From the IMG/VR virus record IMGVR_UViG_3300008952_003220, positions 62,001 to 126,000 of that record: a stretch of DNA of 64,000 bases, one strand, 5' to 3'. The notes under the pieces are model-generated. The model searched no databases and had not been told where the DNA came from. It saw only the letters and a program-made list of their open reading frames with translations. This document shows, piece by piece, positions 39,821-58,853 of the stretch; within the stretch, counting starts at the first letter, position 1; the number at the start of each line of letters is the position of its first letter. The position numbers and the translations under genes are program-made. This DNA is from a virus.

Positions 39821-39841
39821 TTTTCTAGGTTATCTTGTCTT

Positions 39842-39871: not shown

Positions 39872-39942
39872 ATTCATTAGATGCAGATTTTATTGTTTCT
39901 GATTCCCGAGAATAGATAGTAATAAGGGTCTGGAGAAAACTC

Positions 39943-40341: not shown

Positions 40342-40380
40342 ACTTTTTAAGTTTAAGCAACCTCTTTCTGGAGAAGTGTA

Positions 40381-40979: not shown

Positions 40980-40982
40980 AAG

Positions 40983-41651
40983 ATGATAATTACTAGAAGA
41001 GACCTAATACGACTTATAAGATCTGAGATAAACGGCTCACTCAAAGAAAACTTAGCAGGAGGTATGATTGGCAATATCTGGGCAATGGCGAGGGTCACTA
41101 GTCCAGATGACGAAACTGCTGATCTCTATTCTCAGTCTGTCTCATGCATTAATGGAAGCACAGTATGTAATCTCCAGGATCCAGACGGTGACGGCGTATA
41201 TTCGTGGCATAAGAAGACAAATGATGTCGACACAGGAGATGAACCTGATGATCCAGAAGGTGAAGAAGCGACTCCTGACACAGATGAACCTGATGATCCA
41301 GACACTGCTGAACCTGAGGCTCAGGGCCAGAGTGAGTGGGTAGAATGCACCGAAGCAGAGCAGGCGGAATTAAATAGACTCCATCCTCGACACGTGAAAT
41401 CAGTAGCGATCGCGACTGCAATTAGAATGTTAAACGCAGCAAAGAAAGAACACATAGAAGACAATTCCGAAGCGATTCCTGATAATGTTCTCGATGATAT
41501 TGCTGATATCATCAGGCCCCACGGGGAAAATGCAATAGTCACTGCGATAGAAGGGGAAAAGGAGAAGACTGCAGATTCTCAGATGGACGTGCTATTCAGC
41601 AGGCGCGGGACAGTGTATGACCTGCAAAGAATTAGAGATAGTCTAGGCTAA
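40983..41651 (+). CDS. tagged acidic protein, 222 aa
   Basis: MIITRRDLIRLIRSEINGSL then LKENL ([LI]xE). Residues 80-115 are repeated D-E-P-D-D-P units (DTGDEPDDPEGEE, DTDEPDDPDTAEP), a disordered linker. The C-terminal 100 residues are helical (RMLNAAKKEHIEDN, ENAIVTAIEGEKEK). No family. Confidence 0.65.
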   Translation: MIITRRDLIRLIRSEINGSLKENLAGGMIGNIWAMARVTSPDDETADLYSQSVSCINGSTVCNLQDPDGDGVYSWHKKTNDVDTGDEPDDPEGEEATPDTDEPDDPDTAEPEAQGQSEWVECTEAEQAELNRLHPRHVKSVAIATAIRMLNAAKKEHIEDNSEAIPDNVLDDIADIIRPHGENAIVTAIEGEKEKTADSQMDVLFSRRGTVYDLQRIRDSLG

Positions 41652-41687
41652 GGAAAATGATTAATTTAGAAATAGGAATGTATTGGT

Positions 41688-42836
41688 ATGAAGATAAGAA
41701 AATCTAGACTACAGCAAATCATCAGAGAGGAGCTGTCAAGGAAACTTAGTAAAGGCTCAGATGTAAGAGAAAGTGCAGGTGTTCTTGTTATGAAAAACAG
41801 GCAACTTGATGAAGCTGCTGTTCTCGTCTTAGGGGGTGCTATAATCACAGCTGAGATGATTGCTGCAGCACTTGGTATTTCCCTAGCTGTTGTTGGAACA
41901 GCGTGGCTTATTGATATGGCTAGTGAGCTTGGCTGGGATTACTATCCTAGTGAGGCTGAAGCCAGAGAGGCTATAAGTCAAGGGATGCCACGGGTCAATC
42001 CAGATCTCAGGCTGCCCGCTTCTTCAGGTTACAGACCCACTGAGGCTGAGCTGCAAGCTCAGCTAGCCCTAAGTGCAACAGCCCAAAGACTCTCGGCAGA
42101 AGCAGAACAGGGATCTGATATTTCTCCGTTAGGGCCGCCCAGACAAAGTGAAGAGCCCGGACCACAACGACGTCTCCCACCTTTGGAATCCATTGAATGG
42201 GACGACACCGAGGATGAAAGGCTTAGAGGGTTCAATGAGTATTGGTCCTTTGCTGTTAGATCGTCTGGCTTTGTGACACACTATTACCTAAACATGTCTG
42301 ATTTTTCTACAGGCCCATATGAGCTATATGATGTTCTAGACACAGCTAGCCCGGAGTCAGATGAGTCATATTTTACTGATCTTGACCTTGGGGTGGGAGT
42401 GCTACCTGGCCAGGGAGAGTCAGAGCTAGAGGTCTCTCATTCAGCTATCGAGCGGCTTATGGATAAGGCTATTGCCTATGCTGAAACTGCTTGGCAATCT
42501 CGAGTAACTCCGTTTACAGCTGATTCTGAGATATGCTATGCTCAATTAAACGTGACTGGGATGTATGAACGTGAGCTAAGATCAATACATCGGATTCCAG
42601 ACGACTACACGACTCTAGGCCCAGTAATGGGCCTTTCAGATCCTACAATGAGAGATAGCTGCGAGTGGGCTTTGCTCATGACAGCTCATGATGATGAAGG
42701 GGTGTGGGGAACTCAGATCCCCATTGTGTCGGAAGATGGTGCTTATATGGGAGAGTATCTTATTGTTATGGATGAGGTGAGAGTAGCTCTATCAGAAGGA
42801 AGATGTGACAACTGCATCTCTGATATTGCCGGATAG
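41688..42836 (+). CDS. tagged membrane-active protein, 382 aa
   Basis: MKIRKSRLQQIIREELSRKL is the tag; SKGSDVRESAG follows. Residues 48-85 are a hydrophobic stretch of about two TM helices (AAVLVLGGAIITAEMIAAAL and ISLAVVGTAWLIDMASELG). A Pro/Gln-rich linker follows, then a beta-rich domain with two Cys pairs (ICYAQLN, DSCEW, CDNC). A cargo that inserts in a membrane is plausible. No known family. Confidence 0.68.
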   Translation: MKIRKSRLQQIIREELSRKLSKGSDVRESAGVLVMKNRQLDEAAVLVLGGAIITAEMIAAALGISLAVVGTAWLIDMASELGWDYYPSEAEAREAISQGMPRVNPDLRLPASSGYRPTEAELQAQLALSATAQRLSAEAEQGSDISPLGPPRQSEEPGPQRRLPPLESIEWDDTEDERLRGFNEYWSFAVRSSGFVTHYYLNMSDFSTGPYELYDVLDTASPESDESYFTDLDLGVGVLPGQGESELEVSHSAIERLMDKAIAYAETAWQSRVTPFTADSEICYAQLNVTGMYERELRSIHRIPDDYTTLGPVMGLSDPTMRDSCEWALLMTAHDDEGVWGTQIPIVSEDGAYMGEYLIVMDEVRVALSEGRCDNCISDIAG

Positions 42837-45747: not shown

Positions 45748-45939
45748 ATGAAGTCATTGAAAGCTGGAGATCGAGTTGTAGTTAGGTCATCACTAGGCGA
45801 CCAGACGGCAACTGTAATAAATATATTCTGGAGAGCTGTAGCAGGTACCTGTGTTTCGTATATCCACAGTATAGAAGTAATATACGAAAATGGGATGAAG
45901 GCAAGCGTCGTTCCTGAAAGAGTTGAAATATTGAAGTAG
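45748..45939 (+). CDS. barrel-like small protein, 63 aa
   Basis: MKSLKAGDRVVVRSSLGDQT, ATVINIFW, SIEVIYENGMKASVVPERV. GDRV replaces GDLV; the array-type ending VEILK is kept. Confidence 0.68.
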   Translation: MKSLKAGDRVVVRSSLGDQTATVINIFWRAVAGTCVSYIHSIEVIYENGMKASVVPERVEILK

Positions 45940-45992
45940 GCGGTTTAGTGTCTTTGATGTCCTAATTAATGAATGAGTGGCATCACTAGGAC

Positions 45993-46181
45993 ATGGAAAA
46001 TAAAGAAATAAAGCTAGCTATCGTAGGAGACCTTGTTGTAAAGAGCAAGGGAATAAGTGTGGGTACAAGGGGAATAGTTACTAATGTGATCGTTAATTTC
46101 ACAGGAACAACAATCTATGAAGTTAATACGCCCATGGGATTACTTAGCTGGTATTCACGTCATGTCAGGATTATAAGATGA
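45993..46181 (+). CDS. barrel-like small protein, 62 aa
   Basis: ENKEIKLAIVGDLVVKSKG, TRGIVTNVIVNFTG, IYEVNTPMGLLSWYSRHV. Ends RIIR. ATGA overlap with the next gene. Confidence 0.68.
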   Translation: MENKEIKLAIVGDLVVKSKGISVGTRGIVTNVIVNFTGTTIYEVNTPMGLLSWYSRHVRIIR

Positions 46182-46399
46182 AATGCGGTGAGCTAGTAGC
46201 GTTTGTTGAAGAATTGAATCCCAGAAAAAACTCATCTGATTGCGGAATCTTTAGGTGGAAAAGCGGAATCTTAGTGAAGAAAGATGAAGAGTTGAAAAAA
46301 GCCACTATTCTATGTGAAGGATCGCTGGTTATAGTTCCACTAGAGTCGATATACATTAGGTCTTTTGATTCACTTTCTAAAGACACATTCACATTTTGA
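46178..46399 (+). CDS. barrel-like small protein, 73 aa
   Basis: Starts MKCGELVAFVEELNPRKNSS: GELV in place of GDLV. KSGILVKKDEELKKATILCE and a short C-terminal tail. A TAAATACTGGGAG leader follows before the next gene. Confidence 0.65.
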   Translation: MKCGELVAFVEELNPRKNSSDCGIFRWKSGILVKKDEELKKATILCEGSLVIVPLESIYIRSFDSLSKDTFTF

Positions 46400-46464
46400 A
46401 ATTATAAAATTAAGAAGATGTGTATTAAGATTAGCTAAATCTTAAATACTGGGAGACAGGATAA

Positions 46465-46737
46465 ATGGCTAATCTCTTTTTTGCTGGAGAAAAGGCAACA
46501 AAAGAAGAAGCGAAGAAGTCGCTGATGGAGCACATTGAAAAGAACTGGACTGGGACATTCTATGCTGACTTCCACACCGATGGCGGTGGCGTCTTAATTC
46601 GGGCGATCATTGAGGTAGAGCATCCAGGTGAAGAACTAGACCAAGAATTTAGAGGGAAATTTCCTGCTAAGTGGCTTGGCTGGCGCCTGGTTCTTCTCAA
46701 AGTGACACCCGGGTATATCGACGCTTTTATCAAATGA
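46465..46737 (+). CDS. hypothetical protein, 90 aa
   Basis: ATG with GGGAGACAGG upstream. N-terminal helix (TKEEAKKSLMEHIEKNW), then a beta sheet (FYADFHTDGGGVLIRAII). Possibly a small alpha/beta binding protein; no family. ATGA overlap with the next gene. Confidence 0.6.
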   Translation: MANLFFAGEKATKEEAKKSLMEHIEKNWTGTFYADFHTDGGGVLIRAIIEVEHPGEELDQEFRGKFPAKWLGWRLVLLKVTPGYIDAFIK

Positions 46738-46937
46738 ATGTGGGTGACTTAGTAAGCTTTGATCTTCCCTATATTACAGGTATGGTCCCTGATAGAGGAG
46801 TAATCCTGTCTATTAATAGGGATCTTAGCTACACTGATGAGGAGATCAAGGTCATGACTAACAGCGGCCTGATGGTCTACATCTCAGATCTAGACTTCAA
46901 ATTCTACTGTGTTGAGGTGATCAGTGCGTGCGGGTGA
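46734..46937 (+). CDS. array-type barrel protein, 67 aa
   Basis: ATG 46734 in an ATGA overlap. MNVGDLVSFDLPYI, RGVILSIN, IKVMTNSGLMVY, VEVISACG: already the array ending EVIS, with the next gene's start overlapping it. Confidence 0.7.
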   Translation: MNVGDLVSFDLPYITGMVPDRGVILSINRDLSYTDEEIKVMTNSGLMVYISDLDFKFYCVEVISACG

Positions 46938-47124
46938 CATGGTTCGATTCAGGTATAGCGGAATGCTTGTTCACGACTTTCCTAATGATGTTCCATGGCA
47001 TCTGGGTCTCTTGATAGAGTACCACACATGGGAAAAGGTTGCGACTGTCATGCACAATGGAAAACTTCTCAGAATCAGAGCAGCTGATGTCACGAAAGCT
47101 GGAAAGAGAGATTTTGTAAAGTGA
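46924..47124 (+). CDS. array-type barrel protein, 66 aa
   Basis: GTG start inside the EVIS region of the previous gene (14-base overlap). MRAGDMVRFRYSGMLVHDF, WHLGLLIEYHTWEKVATVMH. Ends RDFVK, where the GIY-YIG gene begins in a GTGA overlap. Confidence 0.7.
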   Translation: MRAGDMVRFRYSGMLVHDFPNDVPWHLGLLIEYHTWEKVATVMHNGKLLRIRAADVTKAGKRDFVK

Positions 47125-47381
47125 GTGATCAGGCTTGGTTTCTTTACGTTGTTGAGTGTGCTGATGCATCACTTTACACAGGGATCACAACAGATCTGAA
47201 TAGAAGAATCGATGAGCACAATAGGCTATCAAGGGGTGCTAAATATACAAGAAGCCGAAGACCTGTTAGGCTTATCTACTCAAAGAGGTTTAGTGATCGA
47301 TCTGCTGCCTCAAGTGCTGAGGCGAAATTTAAGAGACTGGCTAGAAGAAAAAAGCTAGAGGTGATTAGTGAAGATAGGTGA
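47121..47381 (+). CDS. GIY-YIG nuclease (UPF0213 type) inside the barrel-cassette array
   Basis: 86 residues, GTG start. WFLYVVECADASLYTGITTD is GIY...YTG, followed by LNRRIDEHN, YTRSRRPVRLIYSKRF and AEAKFKRLARRKK. This is the single-domain UPF0213/YhbQ family fold. Its last residues LEVISEDR are the array ending, with the next barrel gene starting inside it. A nuclease gene sitting in cassette register suggests it moves with, or moves, the cassettes (inference). Confidence 0.88.
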   Translation: MSDQAWFLYVVECADASLYTGITTDLNRRIDEHNRLSRGAKYTRSRRPVRLIYSKRFSDRSAASSAEAKFKRLARRKKLEVISEDR

Positions 47382-47559
47382 TATCGTAAAAATGAAAGGT
47401 CCTGACGGAGAAGTTGGTCTTGTCGTTGAACTGGACAATCAGACAGGATTTACCAGAGTCGTTTGGCAAGACGGGGTAAGCCTGTGTGCTACGTCACACC
47501 TGATTCTAATTGAATACATCACACACAAACCTAAGACAGAATCTTCTATATTTTCTTAA
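47368..47559 (+). CDS. array-type barrel protein, 63 aa
   Basis: GTG start in the EVISEDR codons. MKIGDIVKMKGPDGEVGLVV, TRVVWQDGVSLCA, ILIEY. The end is a polar tail rather than EVISESR, and no gene overlaps it, so it is the end of a run. Confidence 0.7.
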   Translation: MKIGDIVKMKGPDGEVGLVVELDNQTGFTRVVWQDGVSLCATSHLILIEYITHKPKTESSIFS

Positions 47560-48113: not shown

Positions 48114-48734
48114 ATGAAGATCACTAGTGAGCAGCTAAGAAGAGTTATAAAAGAAGAGCTCAAGATTCTCAGTGAAGATGAGGGCACAACTTTTGACAGA
48201 GCTGGAATTACATTTCCCATTGATCGGCCCGGGACAGTAGAGTCAGAGAGATATGCCGACATATCGCGGATCTCAGACTGGATTCACGTAGCTCTGCGCA
48301 CAGCTGATAGAATGGAAACTACTGTTCAAGACATTAAAGAGGTATTACTACCACTATATCAATCCAGGGAGGAGTATGAGGAGTTGCGGTTGCAAATATT
48401 TGACAGCGTCGGCGCTCAGCGTGCTGTTGTAGCTCAGCAGCTTAGCCCAAGAATATCCCAGGTCAAAATAGGGCTAGAGGCCGCAACTGTAGCCCTTGAA
48501 AGCATGCAAAGTGAAGTCGCAGTCTTAGAAGAGATTATTCTTCAAGCAGCCCCCGCGGAGATACAGTCGCTCGAGGAAAGAGTTGCAGGGATTCTTGACC
48601 CACTCAGAGGGGATGTAATCGAGACAGAAGAGGAATCATTGGTTCCAGTAGAGCAGGTTGAACCAGGAGATGCTAGGCGGGCTGAGCGTCAGCGACGTCG
48701 TCAACGACGTCGTCAACGGAGACGAGAGCAGTGA
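48114..48734 (+). CDS. tagged coiled-coil protein, 206 aa
   Basis: MKITSEQLRRVIKEELKIL then LSEDE ([LI]xE). Residues 45-160 are helical and acidic (LEAATVALESMQSEVAVLEE). The last 20 residues are an Arg/Gln repeat (RRQRRRQRRREQ, bases 48690-48731) from a GACGTCGTCAAC tandem. The basic end suggests DNA contact. ATGA-type overlap with the next tagged gene. Confidence 0.65.
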   Translation: MKITSEQLRRVIKEELKILSEDEGTTFDRAGITFPIDRPGTVESERYADISRISDWIHVALRTADRMETTVQDIKEVLLPLYQSREEYEELRLQIFDSVGAQRAVVAQQLSPRISQVKIGLEAATVALESMQSEVAVLEEIILQAAPAEIQSLEERVAGILDPLRGDVIETEEESLVPVEQVEPGDARRAERQRRRQRRRQRRREQ

Positions 48735-49099
48735 AGACAACCAGGAGACAGCTAAGACGTCTTATCAGTGAGGAGATTCGTCTCTACTTAAGCGAGGCTT
48801 TTTCTCAAGATAAAGAAGATGAAGCAAGAGAAAAGATTGTTCAAGCTGTTGAGCTAGCCCTGGGGGGATTTAAGAGAAGGACCTTTCTAAATCCCAAGGA
48901 AGTGATGGCTTTAGAGAACGGCCTAATGTCTGTTGGATTAAATCCAGATGATTTCAACATAGACCCAGGTCACCAATTACCTCGTGGGCGAGCTAACAGA
49001 CAAGGCCAGCCGTGCACAGTTGCTATATATCTAGATAGACACGCATATCACTTTGAGTTTGATAGAAAGCTTGGAATAAGGGAAGTTGACAGAACATGA
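48731..49099 (+). CDS. tagged protein, 122 aa
   Basis: GTG start. MKTTRRQLRRLISEEIRLYL then LSEAF ([LI]xE-A). Two helices, then a beta unit (PCTVAIYLDRHAYHFEFDRK). Ends in the ATG of the next tagged gene: three tagged genes in a row share 4-base overlaps. Confidence 0.65.
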   Translation: MKTTRRQLRRLISEEIRLYLSEAFSQDKEDEAREKIVQAVELALGGFKRRTFLNPKEVMALENGLMSVGLNPDDFNIDPGHQLPRGRANRQGQPCTVAIYLDRHAYHFEFDRKLGIREVDRT

Positions 49100-50157
49100 A
49101 AATAACAAGAAAACAGCCAAGAAGACTGATAAAAGAATCCACCTACGAAGAGATCGCAAGAATTCGTGACAGCGGAGACTACGAATGGATGGATATGGAA
49201 TACGAAGTAGTAGACTTAATGGAGTCTATGCAGACATTCCCAGCGAAAGATGTTATTGATATAATGTATTCCGCACTTGATGCTGAAAATAGAAGTGACG
49301 TGGGCTTCTGGCACATGATGTTGAGTGATGGAGGTCATCTTTACGAAGCATTAGATGCATTGAAGGATGAAGAACGGAGACTGGCAGGAGATGGAGAGCT
49401 GAGTGATGCTGAAGCAGTTCAGCTCCATGCCCTTGCTGATGAAGCAATTGAAGATGCTCTGACAGAACAGACGACAAAGATCACACGCAGACAATTAAGA
49501 AGTCTAATCAAAGAAGAGATGGGCCGACTTATCAACGAGCAGGATTATGACGAATCAAACCTCTATACACACGCTGATGGGCAAGAGCTTGTTAACAGGC
49601 TTAGAGTCGTTAATCCCAGACTGGCAAGAAAATATGAAGAGAGTCTCGATACACTTTTCGACAACGGAGACAAGACTGGTCTTTCTATGCGTGTTCGGCA
49701 AATGCTCTATGATCTCGAGGCAGATACAATCATAGATGATGTAGATGAATTTCAACCAGGGTTTTCTGAGTACGGATCTGGACATGGGGCTGAGCTCGGC
49801 GGTGGGATGACTTCACAAGACTACTATTCTACTTTAAGGCAGCAGTGGAAAGAAGAAACAGGAGACGGAGAGCTTTCACCCGACGAGGCAGCGCGCCTTC
49901 GGGCCCTGACAGCCGACGCAATCGCTGATGCAGAGTCAGATAAACCAGCCCCTCTAGTGATGCCAGACCCAGCTACCGGAATATCTCTCGGTCTTGATCA
50001 ACAGGCATTCGGATCCTCAGGAGATCCTGAAATGGAAGCTGAGGTGGGACTTGCTCTTGCTCTGGACACTGGCGAGCCAGGAGAGATCGAGGCAGCTGTC
50101 AAGAAACTAGAGGATCTAGGCTATTCCCCGCAAGAGATCTCCGACATGGGCGGATAG
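49096..50157 (+). CDS. double-tagged fusion protein, 353 aa
   Basis: Two tag helices in one frame: MKITRKQPRRLIKESTYEEI at the start (no [LI]xE) and KITRRQLRSLIKEEMGRLIN near residues 129-148, followed by INEQ. Each half ends in the same helical module, DGELSDAEAVQLHALADEAI (residue ~97) and DGELSPDEAARLRALTADAI (~257). So this is two tagged genes joined in frame, the start codon of the second now ACA-AAG. It is strong evidence for tag and module shuffling. Confidence 0.72.
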   Translation: MKITRKQPRRLIKESTYEEIARIRDSGDYEWMDMEYEVVDLMESMQTFPAKDVIDIMYSALDAENRSDVGFWHMMLSDGGHLYEALDALKDEERRLAGDGELSDAEAVQLHALADEAIEDALTEQTTKITRRQLRSLIKEEMGRLINEQDYDESNLYTHADGQELVNRLRVVNPRLARKYEESLDTLFDNGDKTGLSMRVRQMLYDLEADTIIDDVDEFQPGFSEYGSGHGAELGGGMTSQDYYSTLRQQWKEETGDGELSPDEAARLRALTADAIADAESDKPAPLVMPDPATGISLGLDQQAFGSSGDPEMEAEVGLALALDTGEPGEIEAAVKKLEDLGYSPQEISDMGG

Positions 50158-51320: not shown

Positions 51321-51569
51321 ATGTTTGAAGACAACCCATATTCCCTGTATGACAAGCCTGGACAGAAAGAGGCTACAGCGGATATCAATGCGTTTATGGA
51401 CAGTGTTCAGAGAGAAGTAGCTGCACATCAGGAGAACCTCAGCGCGCTTTGGAAAGAGCTTCGGGAGCTGGCTGATAAGTATAGCTCTCTGGGTGCGGCT
51501 GACACAGAGTCACGCTACGCCATTGAGTTTGAGTTTCGAAAGCGGACAGAAATCAATGAAAGTCGGTGA
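51321..51569 (+). CDS. coiled-coil protein ending in array junction, 82 aa
   Basis: Helical (AFMDSVQREVAAHQENLSAL). Its last codons EINESR are the junction: ATG of the next gene lies inside them, so this non-barrel protein shares the array ending. Confidence 0.64.
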   Translation: MFEDNPYSLYDKPGQKEATADINAFMDSVQREVAAHQENLSALWKELRELADKYSSLGAADTESRYAIEFEFRKRTEINESR

Positions 51570-51753
51570 TGTAGTTAAGGAACGCTGTAGCGGCCAAGTC
51601 GGGCTTGTTATTGAGAGACACAGTCGAGCGGAACTGGAGGGTAGCCCTAACAGTGACTTCACAGTTAGCTATCAATATAAAGTGCTGTTTGGCACAGAGA
51701 CAGTGTTCGTTCGAAATACTAGGTCAGTTGAGGTGATAAGTGAAGCTCGGTGA
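51556..51753 (+). CDS. array-type barrel protein, 65 aa
   Basis: ATG 51556. MKVGDVVKERCSGQVGLVIE, YKVLFGTETVFVRN, VEVISEAR. Insert of about 12 residues between strands 2 and 3. Confidence 0.72.
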   Translation: MKVGDVVKERCSGQVGLVIERHSRAELEGSPNSDFTVSYQYKVLFGTETVFVRNTRSVEVISEAR

Positions 51754-51901
51754 CGTTATATACGATTCTCACTACGGACAGAACGGTATGGTCGTTGAGG
51801 TGTCTGAGTGCGGTGTATTCTGCACTGTTCTCTACTCTGACGGTATTTCTGAAAGGGGCATTCGGGCTAATGAGCCTGGAATTGAGGTGATTAGTGACTG
51901 A
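51740..51901 (+). CDS. array-type barrel protein, 53 aa
   Basis: GTG start inside EVISEAR of the previous gene. MKLGDVIYDSHYGQNGMVVE, CTVLYSDGIS, IEVISD. One of the shortest complete versions. Confidence 0.7.
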   Translation: MKLGDVIYDSHYGQNGMVVEVSECGVFCTVLYSDGISERGIRANEPGIEVISD

Positions 51902-52052
51902 CAAAGAGATTATTCGTGAGGCATTCTTCGCACTGTCGGGCTTTCGAAGCCCGTCACTAACAAAGAAGCAGCAAGAGCAGGAACTGGAAAGATGTTGGAA
52001 GGTGCTAGCAGAAGCTGTATACGGGAGTGGAGAAGAAAATGAAACTCGGTGA
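51894..52052 (+). CDS. helical non-barrel array member, 52 aa
   Basis: GTG start overlapping EVISD. TDKEIIREAFFALSGFRSPS, then a coil (KKQQEQELERCWKVLAEAV). It ends ENETR, the junction for the next gene. A different fold in cassette register. Confidence 0.6.
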   Translation: MTDKEIIREAFFALSGFRSPSLTKKQQEQELERCWKVLAEAVYGSGEENETR

Positions 52053-52143
52053 CTGCATAGTTATTTTTTCTTTTGTGTTTGTTGGGATTCCGCTCATTGG
52101 ACTGCTGACAGCTTTTGTCGAGATTCTTATGGGTGTACTGTGA
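52039..52143 (+). CDS. single-TM array member, 34 aa
   Basis: ATG in the ENETR codons. MKLGDCIVIFSFVFVGIPLI then GLLTAFVEILMGVL: the array start MKLGD joined to a membrane helix instead of a barrel. Confidence 0.58.
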   Translation: MKLGDCIVIFSFVFVGIPLIGLLTAFVEILMGVL

Positions 52144-52310
52144 AAGTCGGTGACTTGGTAAGATGGAAGGGTCACAGCAAGATACCTGGTATTGTCTTGG
52201 CAACAAAGCAGACGAAGGGGGCATTTAGACGAACTGCTGTGCTTGCGTATATTCCCGAATGCCCAGAACCAGAATGGTTTTTGAAAAGCGAGCTGGAGTT
52301 GGTAAAATGA
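52140..52310 (+). CDS. array-type barrel protein, 56 aa
   Basis: GTGA overlap start. MKVGDLVRWKGHSKIPGIVL, RTAVLAYIPE, EWFLKSELELVK. Ends in an ATGA overlap with the next gene. Confidence 0.7.
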   Translation: MKVGDLVRWKGHSKIPGIVLATKQTKGAFRRTAVLAYIPECPEPEWFLKSELELVK

Positions 52311-52639
52311 AAGCCTATGACGGTTTTGCAATTCTTATTCTGTCTGGTTGCTTAGTTCAAGAGAAAGATACGGGACATGAGAACGATTTCCCAATTGAGT
52401 CTGTGAGCTGCACTCACCCTGATTCGGATTACGAAGCTGTTGTTGAAGTCGCTGTCGAAGATAGCTATGAATGGGAAGATATCCATTTCCAGATTCATCA
52501 ATACGAAGAGACATGGGACACACTTCTGTGGAAGCCTGGTGATGAAGACACAGCTTGGTATACAAGAATGCAGATTATGGAGCTCGACTGTCGGGCTGGA
52601 TATGATTATGACTTTCTATATGTAGAGGGTGATTTGTGA
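52307..52639 (+). CDS. acidic lipoprotein-like array member, 110 aa
   Basis: ATG 52307. MKAYDGFAILILSGCLVQEK: array-like MKAxD followed by a hydrophobic stretch and a lipobox-like SGC. The rest is strongly acidic (AVEDSYEWEDIHFQIHQYEE). Export to the envelope is possible. Confidence 0.6.
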   Translation: MKAYDGFAILILSGCLVQEKDTGHENDFPIESVSCTHPDSDYEAVVEVAVEDSYEWEDIHFQIHQYEETWDTLLWKPGDEDTAWYTRMQIMELDCRAGYDYDFLYVEGDL

Positions 52640-52857
52640 AACCTGGTGAACGCATGAATCCAGGTGACCTAGTTAGGGTAATCCATGAGGATGATCAACA
52701 GTTCACTTGTGAGACGGCGTCGTACGTCTGGCATGAGTTCATGGGGAAGTTCGGAATGATCGTCTCAATGGCAAAGCGGCTTCATATCCCAGCTGCCAAG
52801 GTTCTTATCAAGGGAGCTGTGGCTGAGTTTGATCTTGATGAGCTGGAGACATTATGA
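52636..52857 (+). CDS. array-type barrel protein with doubled start, 73 aa
   Basis: GTG 52636 after GAGGGTGAT. MKPGERMNPGDLVRVIHEDD carries the start motif twice (KPGE and NPGD), as if a start had been duplicated; ATG 52654 could also serve. The body is FGMIVSMAKRLHIPAAKVLI, and it ends DELETL without the junction tail. Confidence 0.66.
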   Translation: MKPGERMNPGDLVRVIHEDDQQFTCETASYVWHEFMGKFGMIVSMAKRLHIPAAKVLIKGAVAEFDLDELETL

Positions 52858-52863
52858 CTATTT

Positions 52864-53094
52864 GTGAAACCTATGCAAGTCGGTGACTTGGTGAGATGCA
52901 CCTGGCAGCCTCGGTCATCCGGGCATGTCAAGGGAATTGGGTGCCTTGGGCCACCACCACTCATCAAGGGAGAGTACGGAATTATTGTTAACCAGCGGCT
53001 TGATATTAACCATCATACAATATTGTTTCCAAGGTTTGGATATGAGCATACACTTTCTCCAAACGCGTTTGAGGTGATCAGTGAAAGCCGGTGA
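52864..53094 (+). CDS. array-type barrel protein, 76 aa
   Basis: GTG start. MKPMQVGDLVRCTWQPRSSG with a Gly/Pro insert (LGPPPLIKG), EYGIIVNQRL, then FEVISESR. Confidence 0.7.
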   Translation: MKPMQVGDLVRCTWQPRSSGHVKGIGCLGPPPLIKGEYGIIVNQRLDINHHTILFPRFGYEHTLSPNAFEVISESR

Positions 53095-53269
53095 TTTGGT
53101 AAGATTTAAGAATATTGGTGGACCAGCTAAGGCATGGGGGTCATATGGGCTCATCACAAGAATCCACCATCATCGTCATGTAATAGGGCGGATCTACCTT
53201 CTCACAAGATTTGGGCTGGCTACAGTTCCATTTTCTAAGAGAAGTAGATATCTTGAGGTCGTAAAGTGA
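53081..53269 (+). CDS. array-type barrel protein, 62 aa
   Basis: GTG start in the junction. MKAGDLVRFKNIGGPAKAWG, SYGLITRIHHHRHVIGRIYL, YLEVVK. No SESR tail; the next gene begins 23 bases later without overlap. Confidence 0.7.
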   Translation: MKAGDLVRFKNIGGPAKAWGSYGLITRIHHHRHVIGRIYLLTRFGLATVPFSKRSRYLEVVK

Positions 53270-53291
53270 AAAGCTTTAGAAGTGAGGAAAT

Positions 53292-53426
53292 GTGAGCTGT
53301 CTTAGTTCTCTTTTTTGGATGGATCCAGTGATCATCTTAGTGTCATCTATTTCTGTTTTTTTCGCTCTAAGTTGGTTTTTGGAAAAGATTGCTGATAAGC
53401 TTGGAATAAAGGATGAAGAAGATTGA
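53292..53426 (+). CDS. single-TM mini-protein, 44 aa
   Basis: GTG start. SCLSSLFWMDPVIILVSSIS then VFFALSWFLEKIADKLG. Ends DEED with the next TTG start overlapping its stop by 4 bases. Confidence 0.55.
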   Translation: MSCLSSLFWMDPVIILVSSISVFFALSWFLEKIADKLGIKDEED

Positions 53427-53647
53427 AGGTTGGTGACTTGGTTCGATATAGGGCTGGTAAGGGCTTCGGTCCGATTGCGATTGTTGTCGATGAAAGTCCA
53501 TCAATCTCTGACTTTCATCGACGAATCAGAGTGATGTGGCTCGGAAACAAGAAACCCGTTGCTTCTCATGCATTTTCAGTCAATGGAAAGAGGGTTAGTA
53601 CTTGGGTTCATCCAAAAAAGTTTGAGGTGATCAGTGAAAGTCGGTGA
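53423..53647 (+). CDS. array-type barrel protein, 74 aa
   Basis: TTG start. MKVGDLVRYRAGKGFGPIAI, RIRVMWLGNKKPVA, WVHPKKFEVISESR. A typical full-length member: the middle GKxFG loop and the Trp strand are clear. Confidence 0.73.
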   Translation: MKVGDLVRYRAGKGFGPIAIVVDESPSISDFHRRIRVMWLGNKKPVASHAFSVNGKRVSTWVHPKKFEVISESR

Positions 53648-53795
53648 CTTGGTGAGGCACAAACGTTCAGAATGTGGAATGACAGGAATCATTGTGGAAG
53701 TTCATGTTAACAAAACTCCCATCGTCCTGTGGGGCGATGGTCGACGTGGTCAATGCATCCCAGCATATCTTGAGGTGATCAGTGAAGCTTGGTGA
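53634..53795 (+). CDS. array-type barrel protein, 53 aa
   Basis: GTG at the junction. MKVGDLVRHKRSECGMTGII, VLWGDGRRGQCIPAY, LEVISEAW. The tail SEAW (not SESR) results from the next start encoding MKLGD. Confidence 0.72.
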   Translation: MKVGDLVRHKRSECGMTGIIVEVHVNKTPIVLWGDGRRGQCIPAYLEVISEAW

Positions 53796-53991
53796 CTTGG
53801 TGACTATGCCTGGTACGTGGATTAGAAACATGGACGATGGCAACGGATTGGGAATGGTGGTAGAATTGCCTTTTGTCGGTCCTAACGGAGAAACGCAACA
53901 AACTCCGCGAGTCGGCATATTGTGGTCGGATGGAGAAGGAATTGACTGGGAGCCTGAAACATGGCTGGAGGTAATCAGTGAAAGTCGGTGA
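53782..53991 (+). CDS. array-type barrel protein, 69 aa
   Basis: GTG start. MKLGDLVTMPGTWIRNMDDG, GLGMVVELPFVGPNG, PRVGILWSDGEGIDW, LEVISESR. Confidence 0.72.
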   Translation: MKLGDLVTMPGTWIRNMDDGNGLGMVVELPFVGPNGETQQTPRVGILWSDGEGIDWEPETWLEVISESR

Positions 53992-54142
53992 TCTAATTAG
54001 ACACACGAAGACAGGTTGGACAGCGATGATTCTTAAATTGCCTCGATCTACTTCGGATGCGGGAATGATGACGGTACTCACTTTCGAAGGTGAGGGTCAG
54101 TGGAGAATGTCTTCATGCGAGGTGATCAGTGAAAGTCATTAG
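53978..54142 (+). CDS. array-type barrel protein, 54 aa
   Basis: GTG start. MKVGDLIRHTKTGWTAMILK, MMTVLTFEGEGQWRM, CEVISESH. The tail ends His because the next gene starts MKVIR. Confidence 0.7.
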   Translation: MKVGDLIRHTKTGWTAMILKLPRSTSDAGMMTVLTFEGEGQWRMSSCEVISESH

Positions 54143-54383
54143 ACCGGGATCTCACGCGAGAGTCGGAGACTACATTCGAGAAGGTTGGGATACTGAGACA
54201 AGAAGTATTCAGCCTCCATACAACTATGGCATTGTCATTAAGACAGAGACGCGCACTTTGGGACCTTACACGCAAGAGCAGATCGATGAATCGCCAATTA
54301 GGAAGATTTATTTTCTAACTAATGGTGGAAAGATAATGGCGAGGTATGCGGTGCACATAGAGGTAATCAGTGAAAGTCGGTGA
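54129..54383 (+). CDS. array-type barrel protein, N-terminally diverged, 84 aa
   Basis: GTG start. MKVIRPGSHARVGDYIREGW: nine residues inserted before the GDxI turn. Longer middle loop, then KIYFLTNGGKIMA and IEVISESR. Confidence 0.7.
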   Translation: MKVIRPGSHARVGDYIREGWDTETRSIQPPYNYGIVIKTETRTLGPYTQEQIDESPIRKIYFLTNGGKIMARYAVHIEVISESR

Positions 54384-54525
54384 TCTGGTACGGGTAATGA
54401 GTCGAGAGGGTAATATCGGACTAATCGTAAAGATTGAAGAGTATTATCTTATGGCTCAAAAAGCTAAGCATGCACTTCTTCACACTGGAGAGAGTTTTCG
54501 TCTTCACGAGCTGGAGGTGGTTTAA
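54370..54525 (+). CDS. array-type barrel protein, 51 aa
   Basis: GTG start. MKVGDLVRVMSREGNIGLIV, HALLHTGESFRLHELEVV. It ends at the ATG of the membrane protein; LEVV replaces LEVI. Confidence 0.7.
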   Translation: MKVGDLVRVMSREGNIGLIVKIEEYYLMAQKAKHALLHTGESFRLHELEVV

Positions 54526-54911
54526 TGAAAGCTGGTGACCTAGTCTTCTGGGGTTTATTCGGTATGATGATAGAGGTATGCTTTACTGCGCTAAGAAGCT
54601 TGATTATAGATAAGAAGCTTAATTTAGTTGGACACACTTCTGTGTGGATGTTTCCCATATATGCCTTAGGACTTTCTTATGGTTTCGATTTTGTGTTGTG
54701 GTTAATTAAAAATGACGTGATTCGGTATCTCACGTACCCCTTGTGGATTTGGGGAGTCGAGCTTGCAGTAGGGATTCCAGCTTCAAGAATGGGAATTTTA
54801 CTGTGGAACTATGATTATCTTCCTAAGCAGCTGCATTGGAAAGGAATAATCAGCTTTGCTCACTACCCGCTGTGGGCAGGTTTTGGTATATTGGTGGAGA
54901 TGATTAAATGA
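54525..54911 (+). CDS. TMEM229-like membrane protein with array start
   Basis: 128 residues. The first residues are MKAGDLVFWGLFGMMIEVCF, the array start leading into a membrane segment. About five TM segments with conserved-looking IEVCFTALRSLI, HTSVWMFPIYALGLSYG, IWGVELAVGI, LLWNYDYLP and YPLWAGFGILVEMI. That order (GxxxEvxFT, hTSvWmfPiYg, WtwELxxG, WnY, gxxxxEm) matches the TMEM229 / PF06541-type family. Function unknown in any organism. In the array it shows that whole membrane proteins can be cassettes. Confidence 0.68.
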   Translation: MKAGDLVFWGLFGMMIEVCFTALRSLIIDKKLNLVGHTSVWMFPIYALGLSYGFDFVLWLIKNDVIRYLTYPLWIWGVELAVGIPASRMGILLWNYDYLPKQLHWKGIISFAHYPLWAGFGILVEMIK

Positions 54912-55114
54912 AAGTAGGTGATGTTGTTCGCATACCAGCAGGAGCTAGGGATGCCTTTAGAATGAGATCTGATGTCGGAATGATTGTTGGAAAGATTCCC
55001 AGAAAGGATAAGTACCCAGACGATCTCGAGGTTTTGGTCGATGGTATTATCCATGCCCTAGGGTTTCAGATAAAGGTTGATCCGCTTTTTAAGGTGATTA
55101 GTGAAGCTGGGTGA
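54908..55114 (+). CDS. array-type barrel protein, 68 aa
   Basis: ATGA overlap. MKVGDVVRIPAGARDAFRMR, VGMIVGKIPRKD, LEVLVDGIIHALG, FKVISEAG. Confidence 0.71.
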   Translation: MKVGDVVRIPAGARDAFRMRSDVGMIVGKIPRKDKYPDDLEVLVDGIIHALGFQIKVDPLFKVISEAG

Positions 55115-55289
55115 TCTGGTCCAGATACAAAGCTGGTGTCGAAGCAAGGGTAGAATGGCACATGTTGTGGAAACATTCTGGTGGGATACTTCTCGAGTAA
55201 GGATTCAATTTCTTGATAAAGCAGGACTATCTCAAAAGCCCTCTGATGCAGCAGTATCTAATTTAATAGTGCTTCAGGCAGTAGAGTGA
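55101..55289 (+). CDS. array-type barrel protein, 62 aa
   Basis: GTG start in the SEAG junction. MKLGDLVQIQSWCRSKGRMA, VRIQFLDKAGLS; ends LIVLQAVE with a GTGA overlap. Confidence 0.69.
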   Translation: MKLGDLVQIQSWCRSKGRMAHVVETFWWDTSRVRIQFLDKAGLSQKPSDAAVSNLIVLQAVE

Positions 55290-55468
55290 AAGCCGGAGAT
55301 CTAGTTTATGATGACAGCATTGGACTTATTGGTATTATCATCGGTGTTTCGACTGTGGGATATCGAGGATCGGAAATGTACGATGTCTTATTTCAACCTG
55401 TCTTCTCAGGTGAGATATTCATTGCTGAAGTGTTCTCTAAAGATCTGACGATTATCGGTGAGACATAA
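55286..55468 (+). CDS. array-type barrel protein, 60 aa
   Basis: GTG start. MKAGDLVYDDSIGLIGIIIG, YDVLFQPVFSGEIF; ends LTIIGET with no junction tail. Last member of this run, before the 55475 promoter. Confidence 0.7.
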   Translation: MKAGDLVYDDSIGLIGIIIGVSTVGYRGSEMYDVLFQPVFSGEIFIAEVFSKDLTIIGET

Positions 55469-55474
55469 GTTTCG

Positions 55475-55502
55475 TGCAGCCTTGAATTAGCTGTGGTATA
55501 AT
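55475..55502 (+). promoter_or_regulatory. promoter of the window-wide family
   Basis: TGCAGC at 55475-55480, 16-base spacer ending TGTGG, TATAAT at 55497-55502. Confidence 0.78.
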
Positions 55503-55530
55503 AAGAACATACAAAACAAGGAGAAAAACA

Positions 55531-55836
55531 ATGCCACTTTCAGCAAATGAACTAATGCTAGATGCTAAGATGCTCAATCTCGAAGAGATGCTTGAGCTCA
55601 ACAGCTTCCTCGTCAGTCAAATCAAGAAAGAACAGAAACGTCAAGCACGTCAGAACAAAGCTAGCCTCTCTGTCGGAGACGCAGTTAGGTTCTCAGACAA
55701 TGACGGTCTCGTCACCCACGGCAAGGTTACGAAGATCATGCGTACAAAGGCCCTGGTTGACGTTGGCCCTTGTGTCTGGCGTGTCCCAATGCATCACCTG
55801 ACCAAGGTTAAGATGCCTACCGGGTTTGCTGTATAA
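55531..55836 (+). CDS. helix plus barrel protein, 101 aa
   Basis: ATG after AAGGAGA. Residues 1-40 are helical (NLEEMLELNSFLVSQIKKEQ). From residue 45 the barrel unit: LSVGDAVRFSDNDGLVTHGK, KALVDVGPCVWRVP. A GDAV version with a N-terminal helix. Confidence 0.68.
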   Translation: MPLSANELMLDAKMLNLEEMLELNSFLVSQIKKEQKRQARQNKASLSVGDAVRFSDNDGLVTHGKVTKIMRTKALVDVGPCVWRVPMHHLTKVKMPTGFAV

Positions 55837-56159
55837 TGGCGACGCTTCTAGAAAGACTTCGAAACCACGACTGGTTCTACGCATACTCTGACGATCACCG
55901 TGTGTGGAAGCGCGGTGAGCAGCGTACCAAGGAGCTCTACAGCGAGCTCGTCAAGAGGGAGTGTCCATACAATATGGGTGACATTCGTATGACAGTTCAA
56001 AAGATGATTCTTGAAGACTTCACAGAGGTTGAGACTAATCGATGGTATCGAGACCCTGAGAAGACTCGATATGTGGCACCTGCACAGAGATCTGAGCTTA
56101 TTGAGAGATCACGTGCTGAAGAGGTTCTGAGGTGGATTGATTCAAATGAAAATCGGTGA
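55836..56159 (+). CDS. hypothetical protein with array ending, 107 aa
   Basis: ATG overlapping the previous TAA by one base. Helical and basic (LLERLRNHDWFYAYSDDHRV). Its end DSNENR is the junction for the barrel gene at 56146. C-ending codons are frequent. Confidence 0.66.
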   Translation: MATLLERLRNHDWFYAYSDDHRVWKRGEQRTKELYSELVKRECPYNMGDIRMTVQKMILEDFTEVETNRWYRDPEKTRYVAPAQRSELIERSRAEEVLRWIDSNENR

Positions 56160-56334
56160 TCTTGTAAGATATAAGTACCCCGATGTCATGGACCCGTGTG
56201 TTGGTCTTCTTATTAAGATTGACAAGAAGGCTAAGCGAGGATATCATCAGTACGGAGTGATGTGGGACTTTCTTCATGGCAGGATCGGTTGGCAAAAAAA
56301 GAGTGAGATCGAGGTGATAGATGAAAGTCGGTGA
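56146..56334 (+). CDS. array-type barrel protein, 62 aa
   Basis: ATG 56146. MKIGDLVRYKYPDVMDPCVG, YGVMWDFLHGRIGW, IEVIDESR. Confidence 0.72.
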   Translation: MKIGDLVRYKYPDVMDPCVGLLIKIDKKAKRGYHQYGVMWDFLHGRIGWQKKSEIEVIDESR

Positions 56335-56518
56335 CCTGGTGATGATTGAAGCCAGGAACAAGAAGCAAACGCTAAGGCCTCCATACTATGGAAAGACTGG
56401 AATCATTGTCGGTCATAATCCTGGTCCGCTTGGCAGCCCTGAGTGGGTTGTTGTTGTCGATAGGAAGGTTAGACAGATTAGTTATCTCTATCTGAAGGTT
56501 GTAAATGAAAGTCGGTGA
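56321..56518 (+). CDS. array-type barrel protein, 65 aa
   Basis: ATG in the DESR codons. MKVGDLVMIEARNKKQTLRP, GKTGIIVGHNPG, LKVVNESR. Confidence 0.72.
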   Translation: MKVGDLVMIEARNKKQTLRPPYYGKTGIIVGHNPGPLGSPEWVVVVDRKVRQISYLYLKVVNESR

Positions 56519-56675
56519 TTTGATAAAGTGCCCAAACAGGCGTCCAGTTCGACAGGGACTCATTATCGAGACTGGTGTGTATGTTGGCAGAAAAGATATT
56601 AAGGTTTTGTGGAGCAATGGTTCGATTTGGACTGAGCGGAGCAAAGATATGGAGACTATCAATGAAAGTCGGTGA
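56505..56675 (+). CDS. array-type barrel protein, 56 aa
   Basis: ATG in NESR. MKVGDLIKCPNRRPVRQGLI, DIKVLWSNGSIW, METINESR. Two Cys fewer than neighbours; the short form. Confidence 0.7.
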   Translation: MKVGDLIKCPNRRPVRQGLIIETGVYVGRKDIKVLWSNGSIWTERSKDMETINESR

Positions 56676-56889
56676 TCTTGTCAGGGTCTTTGAAAAAAGA
56701 GCTTGTGGCGGGGTTTCAAATGGAGCCATCGGCTTGGTCTTAGAAGAAGACAATAGCCAAATAACAACTCCACGATGGAAGATCATGTGGCTATCAGGAA
56801 ACGAGATGACGGGTAGGCTTAAGACTAGTCGAATGAAAGAAAGTGTAACTTATGGACATGGACTAGAGGTGATCAGTGAAAGCCGGTGA
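56662..56889 (+). CDS. array-type barrel protein, 75 aa
   Basis: ATG 56662. MKVGDLVRVFEKRACGGVSN, IGLVLEEDNS, WKIMWLSGNEMTG, LEVISESR. Confidence 0.71.
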   Translation: MKVGDLVRVFEKRACGGVSNGAIGLVLEEDNSQITTPRWKIMWLSGNEMTGRLKTSRMKESVTYGHGLEVISESR

Positions 56890-57070
56890 TCTTGTGAAGC
56901 TCAAAGTGGGTGAAGAGCCTCGAAATAAAAGAGAAATAGGCACAGTCATACAGATTGATGCGTACATTACATCTGTAGGAATGGAACCGATGGCAGAGGT
57001 CCTGTGGAATACGGGAGAGACTGGGTGGATATTATCTAATAGAGTTGAGGTGCTAAGTGAAAGCAGGTGA
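56876..57070 (+). CDS. array-type barrel protein, 64 aa
   Basis: GTG start. MKAGDLVKLKVGEEPRNKRE, IGTVIQIDAYI, AEVLWNTGETGW, VEVLSESR. Confidence 0.72.
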   Translation: MKAGDLVKLKVGEEPRNKREIGTVIQIDAYITSVGMEPMAEVLWNTGETGWILSNRVEVLSESR

Positions 57071-57302
57071 TTTGGTAAGGCTCAGGAAGTCTCATCCAGC
57101 TGTACAGCGCTGGCGGAAAAGCTATCGGAGGCTCGGGCACCCCTTCATTGGGAAGTGGGCAGACGCGGCTGTTCCCCTGCTTGTTCTCGAAGAGTGTGAC
57201 CACTCTATTGACCGGTGGAGGGTAATCGGTCCAGGCGGCGCGCTTGCATCTTTTGACGGATTTTTGCTCATTCGATACGGAGCGCGAAATGAAAGTCGGT
57301 GA
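57057..57302 (+). CDS. array-type barrel protein, basic version, 81 aa
   Basis: GTG start. MKAGDLVRLRKSHPAVQRWR: an Arg-rich loop follows the start. LLVLEECDHSIDRWRVIGPG, ends YGARNESR. Confidence 0.68.
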   Translation: MKAGDLVRLRKSHPAVQRWRKSYRRLGHPFIGKWADAAVPLLVLEECDHSIDRWRVIGPGGALASFDGFLLIRYGARNESR

Positions 57303-57504
57303 TGTGGTCCAGTTTCTACAAGAAAGGTTTAAAAGATCTCATATTGATCAGTGCGGAATATGGGATTGTAAAATCGGAATTCTAGTTAAATACGAAGGCT
57401 CTGATTCAATGACATCAGTCTTTTGCGATGGTAAGCTTTTTCAGATTCATGAAAGTAGAATTGAATATCTGGACCAGGAGTTTCAGTTAGATGAAGGCTG
57501 GTGA
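57289..57504 (+). CDS. array-type barrel protein, 71 aa
   Basis: ATG 57289 in NESR. MKVGDVVQFLQERFKRSHID, KIGILVKYEG, SVFCDGKLFQIHESR; the tail DEGW contains the next start. Confidence 0.7.
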   Translation: MKVGDVVQFLQERFKRSHIDQCGIWDCKIGILVKYEGSDSMTSVFCDGKLFQIHESRIEYLDQEFQLDEGW

Positions 57505-57664
57505 TCTTGTTTACGCAATTTACGACCTTGAGCGAGGGCTCAGTACAGTTGGTATAGTCCTGGAAGTGGAAAAAGATAATGTAAAAGTGCTGTGGTCATC
57601 GCCATCGAATCCAATGGGATGGTGGCGAAAGAATCAGCTGGAGATTATGCATGAAGGTAGGTAA
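57491..57664 (+). CDS. array-type barrel protein, 57 aa
   Basis: ATG in DEGW. MKAGDLVYAIYDLERGLSTV, VKVLWSSPSNPMGWW, LEIMHEGR. Confidence 0.7.
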   Translation: MKAGDLVYAIYDLERGLSTVGIVLEVEKDNVKVLWSSPSNPMGWWRKNQLEIMHEGR

Positions 57665-57833
57665 TCGAGTCCTAAAAGATCAAGTCCTAAATCATAAAGA
57701 CGCTGAAGGAATAGTTACTAAGATCACGAAGGAACATACAATTATTCAGTGGGATAATATAAACGGCGAATGGCACTACAGAAGTGATCAGCTAAAAGAT
57801 ATAAAGGTCTTAGATGGAGGACACAAAAAATGA
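57651..57833 (+). CDS. array-type barrel protein, 60 aa
   Basis: ATG in HEGR. MKVGNRVLKDQVLNHKDAEG: GNRV replaces GDLV. TIIQWDNINGEWHYRSDQL. It ends in an ATGA overlap with the exonuclease gene. Confidence 0.68.
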   Translation: MKVGNRVLKDQVLNHKDAEGIVTKITKEHTIIQWDNINGEWHYRSDQLKDIKVLDGGHKK

Positions 57834-58672
57834 AAGTAGTCTTGTTTGATGCGATGAATCTGATACACAGATCAAGAAACTCATTTAGTAAAGGTGAGCA
57901 TCCTCTGACATATAGCTTCTTTAGATGTTTTAAGCCGCTAGTAGAAAAGTTTAACGCTGATCTAGCATATTTTGTTCTAGAGGGAAATCCATTACACAGG
58001 TCTGGGGAATATTCAGAATACAAGTCAAATCGTCCAGCACAGCCAAGTTCATTTTGGAGACAGTGTGGGGAGATCCTTGAGACAATGAAGAGCTTACCGA
58101 TAGTTCAGATTAGGCATCCAGACTATGAGTGTGATGATGTCATAGCCAATCTCGCTAAATATCATTGCGACTCTGGAAATGAAGTCATTATTGTTTCTTT
58201 CGATTCAGACTTTATTCAGGTGTTTGACAATATGAATCCAGATCTAGTGAAAATATATCACCCAATCAAGAAGGTCTTTATTGAGAATCCAGACTACATC
58301 TATCTCGACTGGAAGGCACTGAGGGGTGATGTGAGTGACAATATTCCAGGTATAAAGGGCGTAGGAGATAAGACAGCGACAAAGATTATCAATGACCAAG
58401 CACTTATGGAAAAGACTCTAGCTGATCCACAGAAGAAAATGATATTTGATAGAAACAGGTCGCTGATCCAGTTTCACTGGTTTGACGATCTGTCAAATGA
58501 TCTTCAAGATTCGGGATCAGAGGTCGTCTATCCTAATATATCTTTTGATGAAGTAAGGTCTAGCTTTGCTGGAATGAACTTTGATAGCATGTTGTCAGAT
58601 AGGTATTGGACCAAGTTTGTGGCTGCCTTTGAGTCTCTTGTAGCAGGTACTGTTAATGATAAATGTCGGTGA
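57830..58672 (+). CDS. FEN-type 5'-3' exonuclease / RNase H (T4 RNase H-like)
   Basis: 280 residues. The PIN-like acidic site is complete: VVLFDAMNLIHRSRNS at the start, DYECDDVIANLA near residue 101, SFDSDFIQVF near 123. The helix-3-turn-helix is DNIPGIKGVGDKTATKI near residue 172. The family removes RNA primers and flaps during replication; T4 RNase H is the phage example. It sits inside the barrel array by ATGA overlap on one side and a 17-base overlap on the other. Confidence 0.9.
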   Translation: MKVVLFDAMNLIHRSRNSFSKGEHPLTYSFFRCFKPLVEKFNADLAYFVLEGNPLHRSGEYSEYKSNRPAQPSSFWRQCGEILETMKSLPIVQIRHPDYECDDVIANLAKYHCDSGNEVIIVSFDSDFIQVFDNMNPDLVKIYHPIKKVFIENPDYIYLDWKALRGDVSDNIPGIKGVGDKTATKIINDQALMEKTLADPQKKMIFDRNRSLIQFHWFDDLSNDLQDSGSEVVYPNISFDEVRSSFAGMNFDSMLSDRYWTKFVAAFESLVAGTVNDKCR

Positions 58673-58853
58673 TCTAGTCATTGTTAAGAATGATCTGTCT
58701 GTCTGGTATGACAAGGCTGTTGGTGTGATTGTTGAGATCATTGGAGACCGAGATCAAAGAACTGCAGTAGCCCGGGTTCTTCTTGAAGACGGAGCTTTGG
58801 GTGTAGCCTATCTAAGAAATTGTGAAAAGATAGAAGACGCTGATAAAATCTAG
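58656..58853 (+). CDS. array-type barrel protein, 65 aa
   Basis: ATG inside the end of the exonuclease. MINVGDLVIVKNDLSVWYDK, AVGVIVEII, AVARVLLEDGALG; no junction tail. Last member of the array. Confidence 0.7.
   Translation: MINVGDLVIVKNDLSVWYDKAVGVIVEIIGDRDQRTAVARVLLEDGALGVAYLRNCEKIEDADKI

Follow-up and report, generated by a model that had tools for sequence, protein, structure and literature searches.

A repeated dual-coding junction links small genes in a large viral genome and probably serves their integrase-free exchange as cassettes

Why should a long run of small viral genes, many of them dissimilar in sequence, begin and end in nearly the same way? The question is raised by positions 51321–58853 of a window of 64,000 nucleotides (nt), the whole stretch of DNA analysed here, which corresponds to bases 62001–126000 of the linear IMG/VR virus record IMGVR_UViG_3300008952_003220 (134,713 base pairs, bp). 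This region holds 34 chained small genes, all on the + strand, comprising 25–26 that are barrel-like and eight others; the original prediction, made from the sequence by eye, had described a chain of about 29 barrel genes, of which the chain stands and the count does not. We propose, with a rough probability of 0.85, that the array is an integrase-free gene-cassette system in which single small genes are exchanged at the repeated junction.

The junction is a repeated 36-letter sequence (consensus TTGGAGGTGATCAGTGAAAGTCGGTGATTTGGTAA) that combines the tail EVISESR-stop of one gene, a ribosome-binding site, and the start codon and head MKVGDLV of the next, so that the upstream protein takes its last beta-strand and its tail, and the downstream protein its first strand, from the repeat. 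In the class with a 14-nt overlap, the upstream frame reads GAG GTG ATC AGT GAA AGT CGG TGA (EVISESR-stop) and the downstream frame GTG AAA GTC GGT GAC TTG GT (MKVGDLV). The overlap is exactly 14 nt at 19 neighbour pairs in the array, where the next gene starts at 51556, 51740, 52039, 53081, 53634, 53782, 53978, 54129, 54370, 55101, 56146, 56321, 56505, 56662, 56876, 57057, 57289, 57491 or 57651. Other overlaps measure 4 nt (seven pairs), 1 nt (two), 8 nt (one) and 17 nt (one), and the chain is broken by gaps before 52864, 53292 and 55531. Since the head (ATG/GTG-AAA-GTC-GGT-GA) carries stops in both other frames, at bases 2–4 and 12–14, the 4-nt and 14-nt overlaps are the two ways in which an unrelated frame can meet it, and almost any gene can therefore sit upstream.

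An exact 25-base junction pattern matched 103 viral contig stretches, next to which lie many more junctions, and the predicted dual-coding arrangement is thus not a chance resemblance. Together with matches to an ATG-type pattern (among the matches listed), the window itself and relatives of its FEN-type exonuclease, these stretches gave a sample of at least 196 loci (L numbers below) and at least 1,367 modules with an MKxGD head, from which near-identical loci and loci of one contig were merged into 144 contig groups. The modules encode 1,221 distinct proteins with lengths of 52–79 amino acids (aa; 5th–95th percentile), and 609 of about 700 linked pairs overlap by 14 nt, with 74 overlapping by 4 nt. 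Across 532 distinct junctions, the positions that carry information run from about −13 to +23 relative to the start codon, and the flanks carry about 0 bits.

The reading of GAGGTGAT as both EV codons and a ribosome-binding site was borne out. The glutamate of EV is GAG in 333/342 junction tails (97%) as against 156/331 internal EV pairs (47%), the synonymous preference expected from a ribosome-binding site, and pairing with the anti-Shine–Dalgarno 3′ end of 16S rRNA averages −11.3 kcal/mol at junctions vs −6.2 kcal/mol before ordinary genes. The glycine codon of the head is GGT at all 531 of the 14-nt junctions and at 551/688 positions elsewhere. The junction tail varies, with a strong Shine–Dalgarno sequence at about 11 of the 19 14-nt junctions and a weaker one in the ATG type. 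From this anatomy, downstream genes may be translationally coupled, by re-initiation, to the genes upstream of them. Such a constraint on synonymous codons is also what would be seen if the junction, as an overlap with a Shine–Dalgarno sequence, were kept for translation only, random illegitimate recombination joining the genes and selection retaining in-frame whole genes; selection by itself would leave breakpoints at gene edges too.

The behaviour of ordinary gene edges bears directly on that explanation. We compared pairs of related modules only between different contig groups, and scored the homology of one half of a module against its other half or its neighbour. Within a module, the other half was homologous in 66/66 and 45/45 cases at identities of at least 90%, and in 136/140 and 135/143 at 80% or more. 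Across the junction, the neighbour was homologous in 6/28 and 6/32 cases (at least 90%) and in 10/79 and 8/58 (at least 80%). Ordinary gene boundaries at the same loci kept their neighbour in 83/114 (at least 80%) and 37/45 (at least 90%) comparisons, and the subset flanking small genes did so in 42/58 and 21/27, respectively. The difference persisted within 2 kb of a junction (17/23 ordinary small-gene boundaries vs 30/226 junctions), and when each family was counted once: 9/56 junctions vs 13/18 small ordinary genes (Fisher P = 1.9e-5) or 26/35 ordinary genes of all sizes (P = 3.5e-8). Homology thus reaches 94–100% within modules, 12–21% across junctions and 73–82% across ordinary boundaries, as expected if modules with the same two ends are exchangeable at the junction with frames intact.

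Where ancestry changes could also be placed. In pairs matched upstream of the junction (n = 32), the excess of identity over background extends as far as +8 (0.94 vs 0.73) and has all but gone from about +14 to +23; in pairs matched downstream (n = 24), little or no excess is seen up to about −1, and it is present from +5 (0.94 vs 0.73). Taken together, these aggregate profiles place the ancestry switch inside the 14-nt overlap. A recent event points to the same site. L017 and L018, whose flanks are 99.5–100% identical, differ by the presence or absence of one module, and at this point L018 has an exactly chimeric junction, with its left half taken from one L017 junction and its right half from the following one, joined across ATGAAAGTCGGTGATTTGGT; the change converts a 4-nt overlap into a 14-nt overlap and leaves every protein intact. 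Further differences are the replacement of one module between L090 and L102 (flanks 99.6% and 98%), a site occupied by one module in L034 and by about eight in L047, and two modules vs one in L031 and L048. Conservation for translation only is unlikely in view of the switch inside the overlap, the chimeric junction, and the retention of neighbours at 72–82% of ordinary edges of the same loci vs 13–28% at junctions.

The genes and other features of the window that bear on this exchange are as follows; homology percentages refer to relatives in other loci.

51542..51579, +, first junction, ATG type; the EINESR* tail of 51321 overlaps the MKVGDVV head of 51556 by 14 nt
51321..51569, +, non-barrel protein of 82 aa, charged and helical; tail INESR* encoded by the junction
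51556..51753, +, barrel, MKVGDVV...EVISEAR*
51740..51901, +, barrel, VKLGDVI...IEVISD*; relatives of 47–52% in L117/L077
51894..52052, +, non-barrel (helical), MTDKEIIREAFFAL...NETR*; 63% relative in L117 with other neighbours and tail DESR*
52039..52143, +, single transmembrane helix, 34 aa, head MKLGDC
52140..52310, +, barrel; upstream overlap of 4 nt
52307..52639, +, lipobox-like protein (ILSGC, judged by eye), start MKAYD; 4-nt overlap on each side
52636..52857, +, barrel with extended head MKPGERMNPGDLV
52864..53094, +, barrel, MKPMQVGDLV...EVISESR*; relatives in 7 contig groups
53081..53269, +, barrel
53292..53426, +, short hydrophobic non-barrel gene, 44 aa
53423..53647, +, barrel with TTG start and 4-nt overlap
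53634..53795, +, barrel, 53 aa; relatives in 84 contig clusters (E ≤ 0.01)
53782..53991, +, barrel; 76% DNA relative in L025 with other neighbours
53978..54142, +, barrel
54129..54383, +, barrel-like, altered head (MKVIRPGSHARVGDY); upstream stop is TAG in the same place
54370..54525, +, barrel
54525..54911, +, multi-transmembrane protein with grafted MKAGD head; 70% homologue in L144 without the head
54908..55114, +, barrel
55101..55289, +, barrel
55286..55468, +, barrel, last of the putative first transcription unit
55488..55504, +, TGTGGTATAAT box, probable promoter of a second unit, read from the sequence
55531..55836, +, protein of 101 aa whose C-terminal part (SVGDAV) is barrel-like; relative of 53% in L117
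55836..56159, +, non-barrel; tail NENR* from the overlap
56146..56334, +, barrel, modelled with AlphaFold2 (five-strand SH3-like; predicted local distance difference test, pLDDT, 89.6)
56321..56518, +, barrel
56505..56675, +, barrel
56662..56889, +, barrel
56876..57070, +, barrel
57057..57302, +, barrel-like; single-module DNA match of 73% to L076
57289..57504, +, barrel
57491..57664, +, barrel
57651..57833, +, barrel (MKVGNRV)
57830..58672, +, FEN-type 5′–3′ exonuclease (PF02739, 4e-21; PF01367, 1e-12); tail NDKCR* via a 17-nt overlap
58656..58853, +, last barrel, variant head MINVGDLV
45748..47559, +, separate small array of like kind, including a GIY-YIG gene at 47121–47381

The non-barrel modules lie in register with the barrels, as had been noted from the sequence, and their ends follow the junction. 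The multi-transmembrane protein at 54525 begins MKAGD-LVFWGLFG, and its homologue in L144 begins (L)MFWGVFG. A TMEM229-like identity had been suggested for this protein; the name found no Pfam support, and a poor single-sequence AlphaFold2 model (pLDDT 54) neither confirms nor excludes it. GIY-YIG relatives carry the tails NESR, YESR, NENR or SEDR when a head follows, and unrelated tails (EFINAAV, INEYL, YIYGRK) when none does. Tails in the 51894 family depend on the following head in the same way; a relative in L192 has no junction and no such tail. Heads and tails therefore belong to the junction and not to the protein family.

Common ends and a common fold might reflect a paralogous family that grew by tandem duplication and divergence and was inherited vertically. 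All barrels do share head, tail and fold, and one pair of copies in L111 is 99% identical, but duplication within a locus is rare: only 5 same-locus pairs are at least 75% alike among the 1,367 modules, as against 62 families (at least 80%) that are common to different contig groups, mostly in different neighbourhoods. Non-barrel proteins bear the same ends, and modules common to unrelated neighbourhoods already contradict this explanation, which we regard as very unlikely. Gene order, whose conservation in all relatives would have spoken against exchange, was not conserved: relatives of 51740, 51894, 52636, 53634, 55531 and the FEN gene all occur in L117, in a different order. Modules that are 97–100% identical were also found singly between unrelated neighbours in other contigs.

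The data are metagenomic, the loci fragmentary and the repeats 20–36 bp long, and such short repeats could have led assemblers to join unrelated contigs. That an artefact of this kind produced the pattern is highly improbable, as many shared modules are 80–97% rather than 100% identical and lie inside long arrays of independent assemblies. A single read usually reaches across a repeat of 36 bp.

How might cassettes move? In the proposed system, a cassette is one small gene, usually for an SH3-like barrel of about 50–80 aa. The junction would play five roles, supplying the end of the upstream protein (last strand and tail), the upstream stop codon, the ribosome-binding site, the start codon and the first strand of the downstream protein; any out-of-frame upstream sequence would end within 4 or 14 nt, permitting coupling to the next gene. 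Because junctions of 20–36 bp are nearly identical everywhere, homology-directed exchange could insert, delete or replace whole cassettes precisely, probably through the annealing of strands or recombination of the RecA/UvsX type while phages replicate and co-infect. Phages would thereby draw modules from a common pool, with exchange both within and between them. The integron-like logic without integrase or attC that had been suggested held up: among 20 array-bearing records, which are partial, neither a tyrosine integrase (PF00589; controls positive in 14/14) nor a serine resolvase/recombinase (PF00239; positive controls included) was found, and the junction shows no unusual folding (z ~0). 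A RecA family protein is present in 18 of the 20, and the phage RecA may be the acting enzyme. The broader proposal, that the dual-coding overlap is itself the recombination site of a general integrase-free cassette system, fixing both protein ends and giving a ribosome-binding site and a stop in either frame while small proteins move singly between large-phage lineages, we hold to be evenly poised.

Nuclease modules could help such exchange, or could drive it. In the latter case, module-borne GIY-YIG and FEN nucleases would cut or process DNA and start a homing-like conversion of adjacent cassettes. At least 11 contig groups with arrays contain GIY-YIG relatives, of which several end in junction tails, and FEN genes lie within the array here and also in L117 and L149. 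We nevertheless find this improbable: most arrays have neither nuclease in the stretch examined, no disruption of a target site was seen, and the GIY-YIG protein of the window is small (86 aa) with only a weak PHROG homing match. This gene (PF01541, 1e-16; tail EVISEDR*) had been listed among the in-register modules; it lies in the separate small array. This phage has two FEN-type exonuclease-like genes, at L009:17416–18378 and window 57830–58672, the one lying with replication genes (by eye) and the other within the cassette array.

Several points weigh against integrase-free cassette exchange. The repeats of 20–36 bp are short for efficient RecA-type exchange, and no dedicated exchange enzyme was identified among the 20 array records. 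Low persistence of neighbours could partly reflect dispensable genes turning over by any route, the control boundaries are fewer (18–35 families), and clean recent events come from a few near-identical pairs only. One module was modelled with an alignment, the remaining barrels being called from sequence pattern. All relatives are metagenomic contigs, from which recombination and translation are inferred.

The structure prediction that had been proposed for the small proteins gave a clear fold for one of them. With 74 aligned modules, the AlphaFold2 model of 56146 is a five-strand barrel (pLDDT 89.6, predicted template modelling score 0.74) in which strands 55–59 (IEVID) and 6–9 (LVRY) are the junction-encoded ends. 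Foldseek matched it to Tudor, PWWP, PsaE, PetP and YorP structures at template modelling scores of 0.6–0.75, with E values no better than 0.005. The model thus resembles SH3-like, Tudor, PWWP, KOW and YccV-type small domains; unlike these, the array barrels belong to no significant sequence family, and function is not transferable. Pfam and PHROGs gave only weak SH3/KOW-like matches for the barrel modules, and one barrel module searched with tblastn against 50,697 phage records had no match. By their sequence pattern, the other barrel modules probably share this fold. Our guess is that the proteins might form a quickly exchanged accessory pool for host interaction or counter-defence.

In all likelihood the DNA comes from a large tailed phage that has not been cultivated. 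Its record encodes a RecA-type recombinase, a gp32-like single-stranded DNA-binding protein, a DnaB-like helicase, a C-family DNA polymerase III alpha subunit and a small PolA, as well as DnaJ, ribonucleotide reductase and a sigma factor, and a GroEL-like protein is present among the open reading frames of the window. No close DNA match was found among named phages, and its RecA is less than 60% identical to RecA of known phages. Genome matches are confined to metagenome bins (Halobacteriovorax, Flavobacteriales and WOR-3), which are probably binned or joined phage contigs, and we therefore claim no host. RecA scores of array-bearing records fall into two classes (E ~1e-65 and ~1e-36), which suggests that the arrays are present in more than one phage lineage.

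Some observations stand beside these. The TGGTATAAT box before 55531 suggests a second transcription unit; such boxes recur shortly before gene starts (window 50966, 55494, 58885 and 59376) and are probably this phage's own promoter type, while generic scans for sigma-70 promoters and for terminators did hardly better than chance. A 90-aa family (MANLFF.GEK..., window 46465–46737) has relatives in 15 contig groups with arrays. Another repeated element, the 5′ leader MKITRRQLRRLIKEE, begins more than 20 otherwise unrelated proteins (window 34625–41700, 48114–49110, 60822 and 62294; most genes of L013; L011:4405), with DNA identity of up to 96% over 55 nt (34632–34686 vs 35287–35341); that it directs proteins to the capsid and contains a protease site (IKE) is an idea only. 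L213, a candidate WOR-3 metagenome-assembled chromosome, holds a run of four junction-type heads near 2143482–2144067, which is either an integrated element or mis-joined phage.

Whether phage mosaicism arises by recombination at conserved boundaries or by random joining and selection is an old question, and one boundary repeated hundreds of times, with ordinary boundaries of the same genomes as controls, offers a direct test of it. The arrangement is a format that accepts further small genes and leaves adjacent ones undamaged. Many unstudied phage proteins seem to circulate in a large pool by exchange, and genes meant to be stacked could be designed in the same simple way. Integrons are the obvious comparison: the array likewise has one-gene, mostly promoterless, interchangeable cassettes with common ends, and its single-gene cassettes are gained, lost and reordered as units. 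It differs in having no integrase that we found and no attC-like structure (folding z ~0), and its cassettes, unlike those of integrons, overlap, each bringing its own start and ribosome-binding site.

In T4-type phages, PeSL cassettes, with an intergenic early promoter and a stem-loop at the exchanged boundary, were reportedly described by Arbiol in 2010 and Comeau in 2014, both cited in PMC4503421. The common trait is a short repeat between small accessory genes of large phages with integrase-free shuffling, whereas our junction is a 14-nt overlap of coding sequences that forms no hairpin and in which no promoter was seen. In cluster K mycobacteriophages, start-associated sequences (SAS; 13 bp, GGGATAGGAGCCC) lie just upstream of the starts of small non-structural genes as repeats containing a Shine–Dalgarno sequence and sometimes the upstream stop; their authors proposed that homologous recombination might act on them but did not show exchange (PMC3203893). 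The junction is likewise repeated and contains a Shine–Dalgarno sequence, but its sequence is different, part of each adjoining reading frame lies within it, and modules are seen to be exchanged one by one. Literature searches, whose coverage left out many journals, returned neither MKVGDLV nor any cassette array of this kind closer than SAS and PeSL. What appears new, although priority is not certain, is the dual-coding overlap as the site, the use of one site for all modules, and the placing of the crossover inside it. Lambdoid phages have conserved linker or boundary sequences, short homologies at gene boundaries that act as recombination points; such a boundary serves one given pair of modules, whereas the junction described here serves all modules, across phage contigs.

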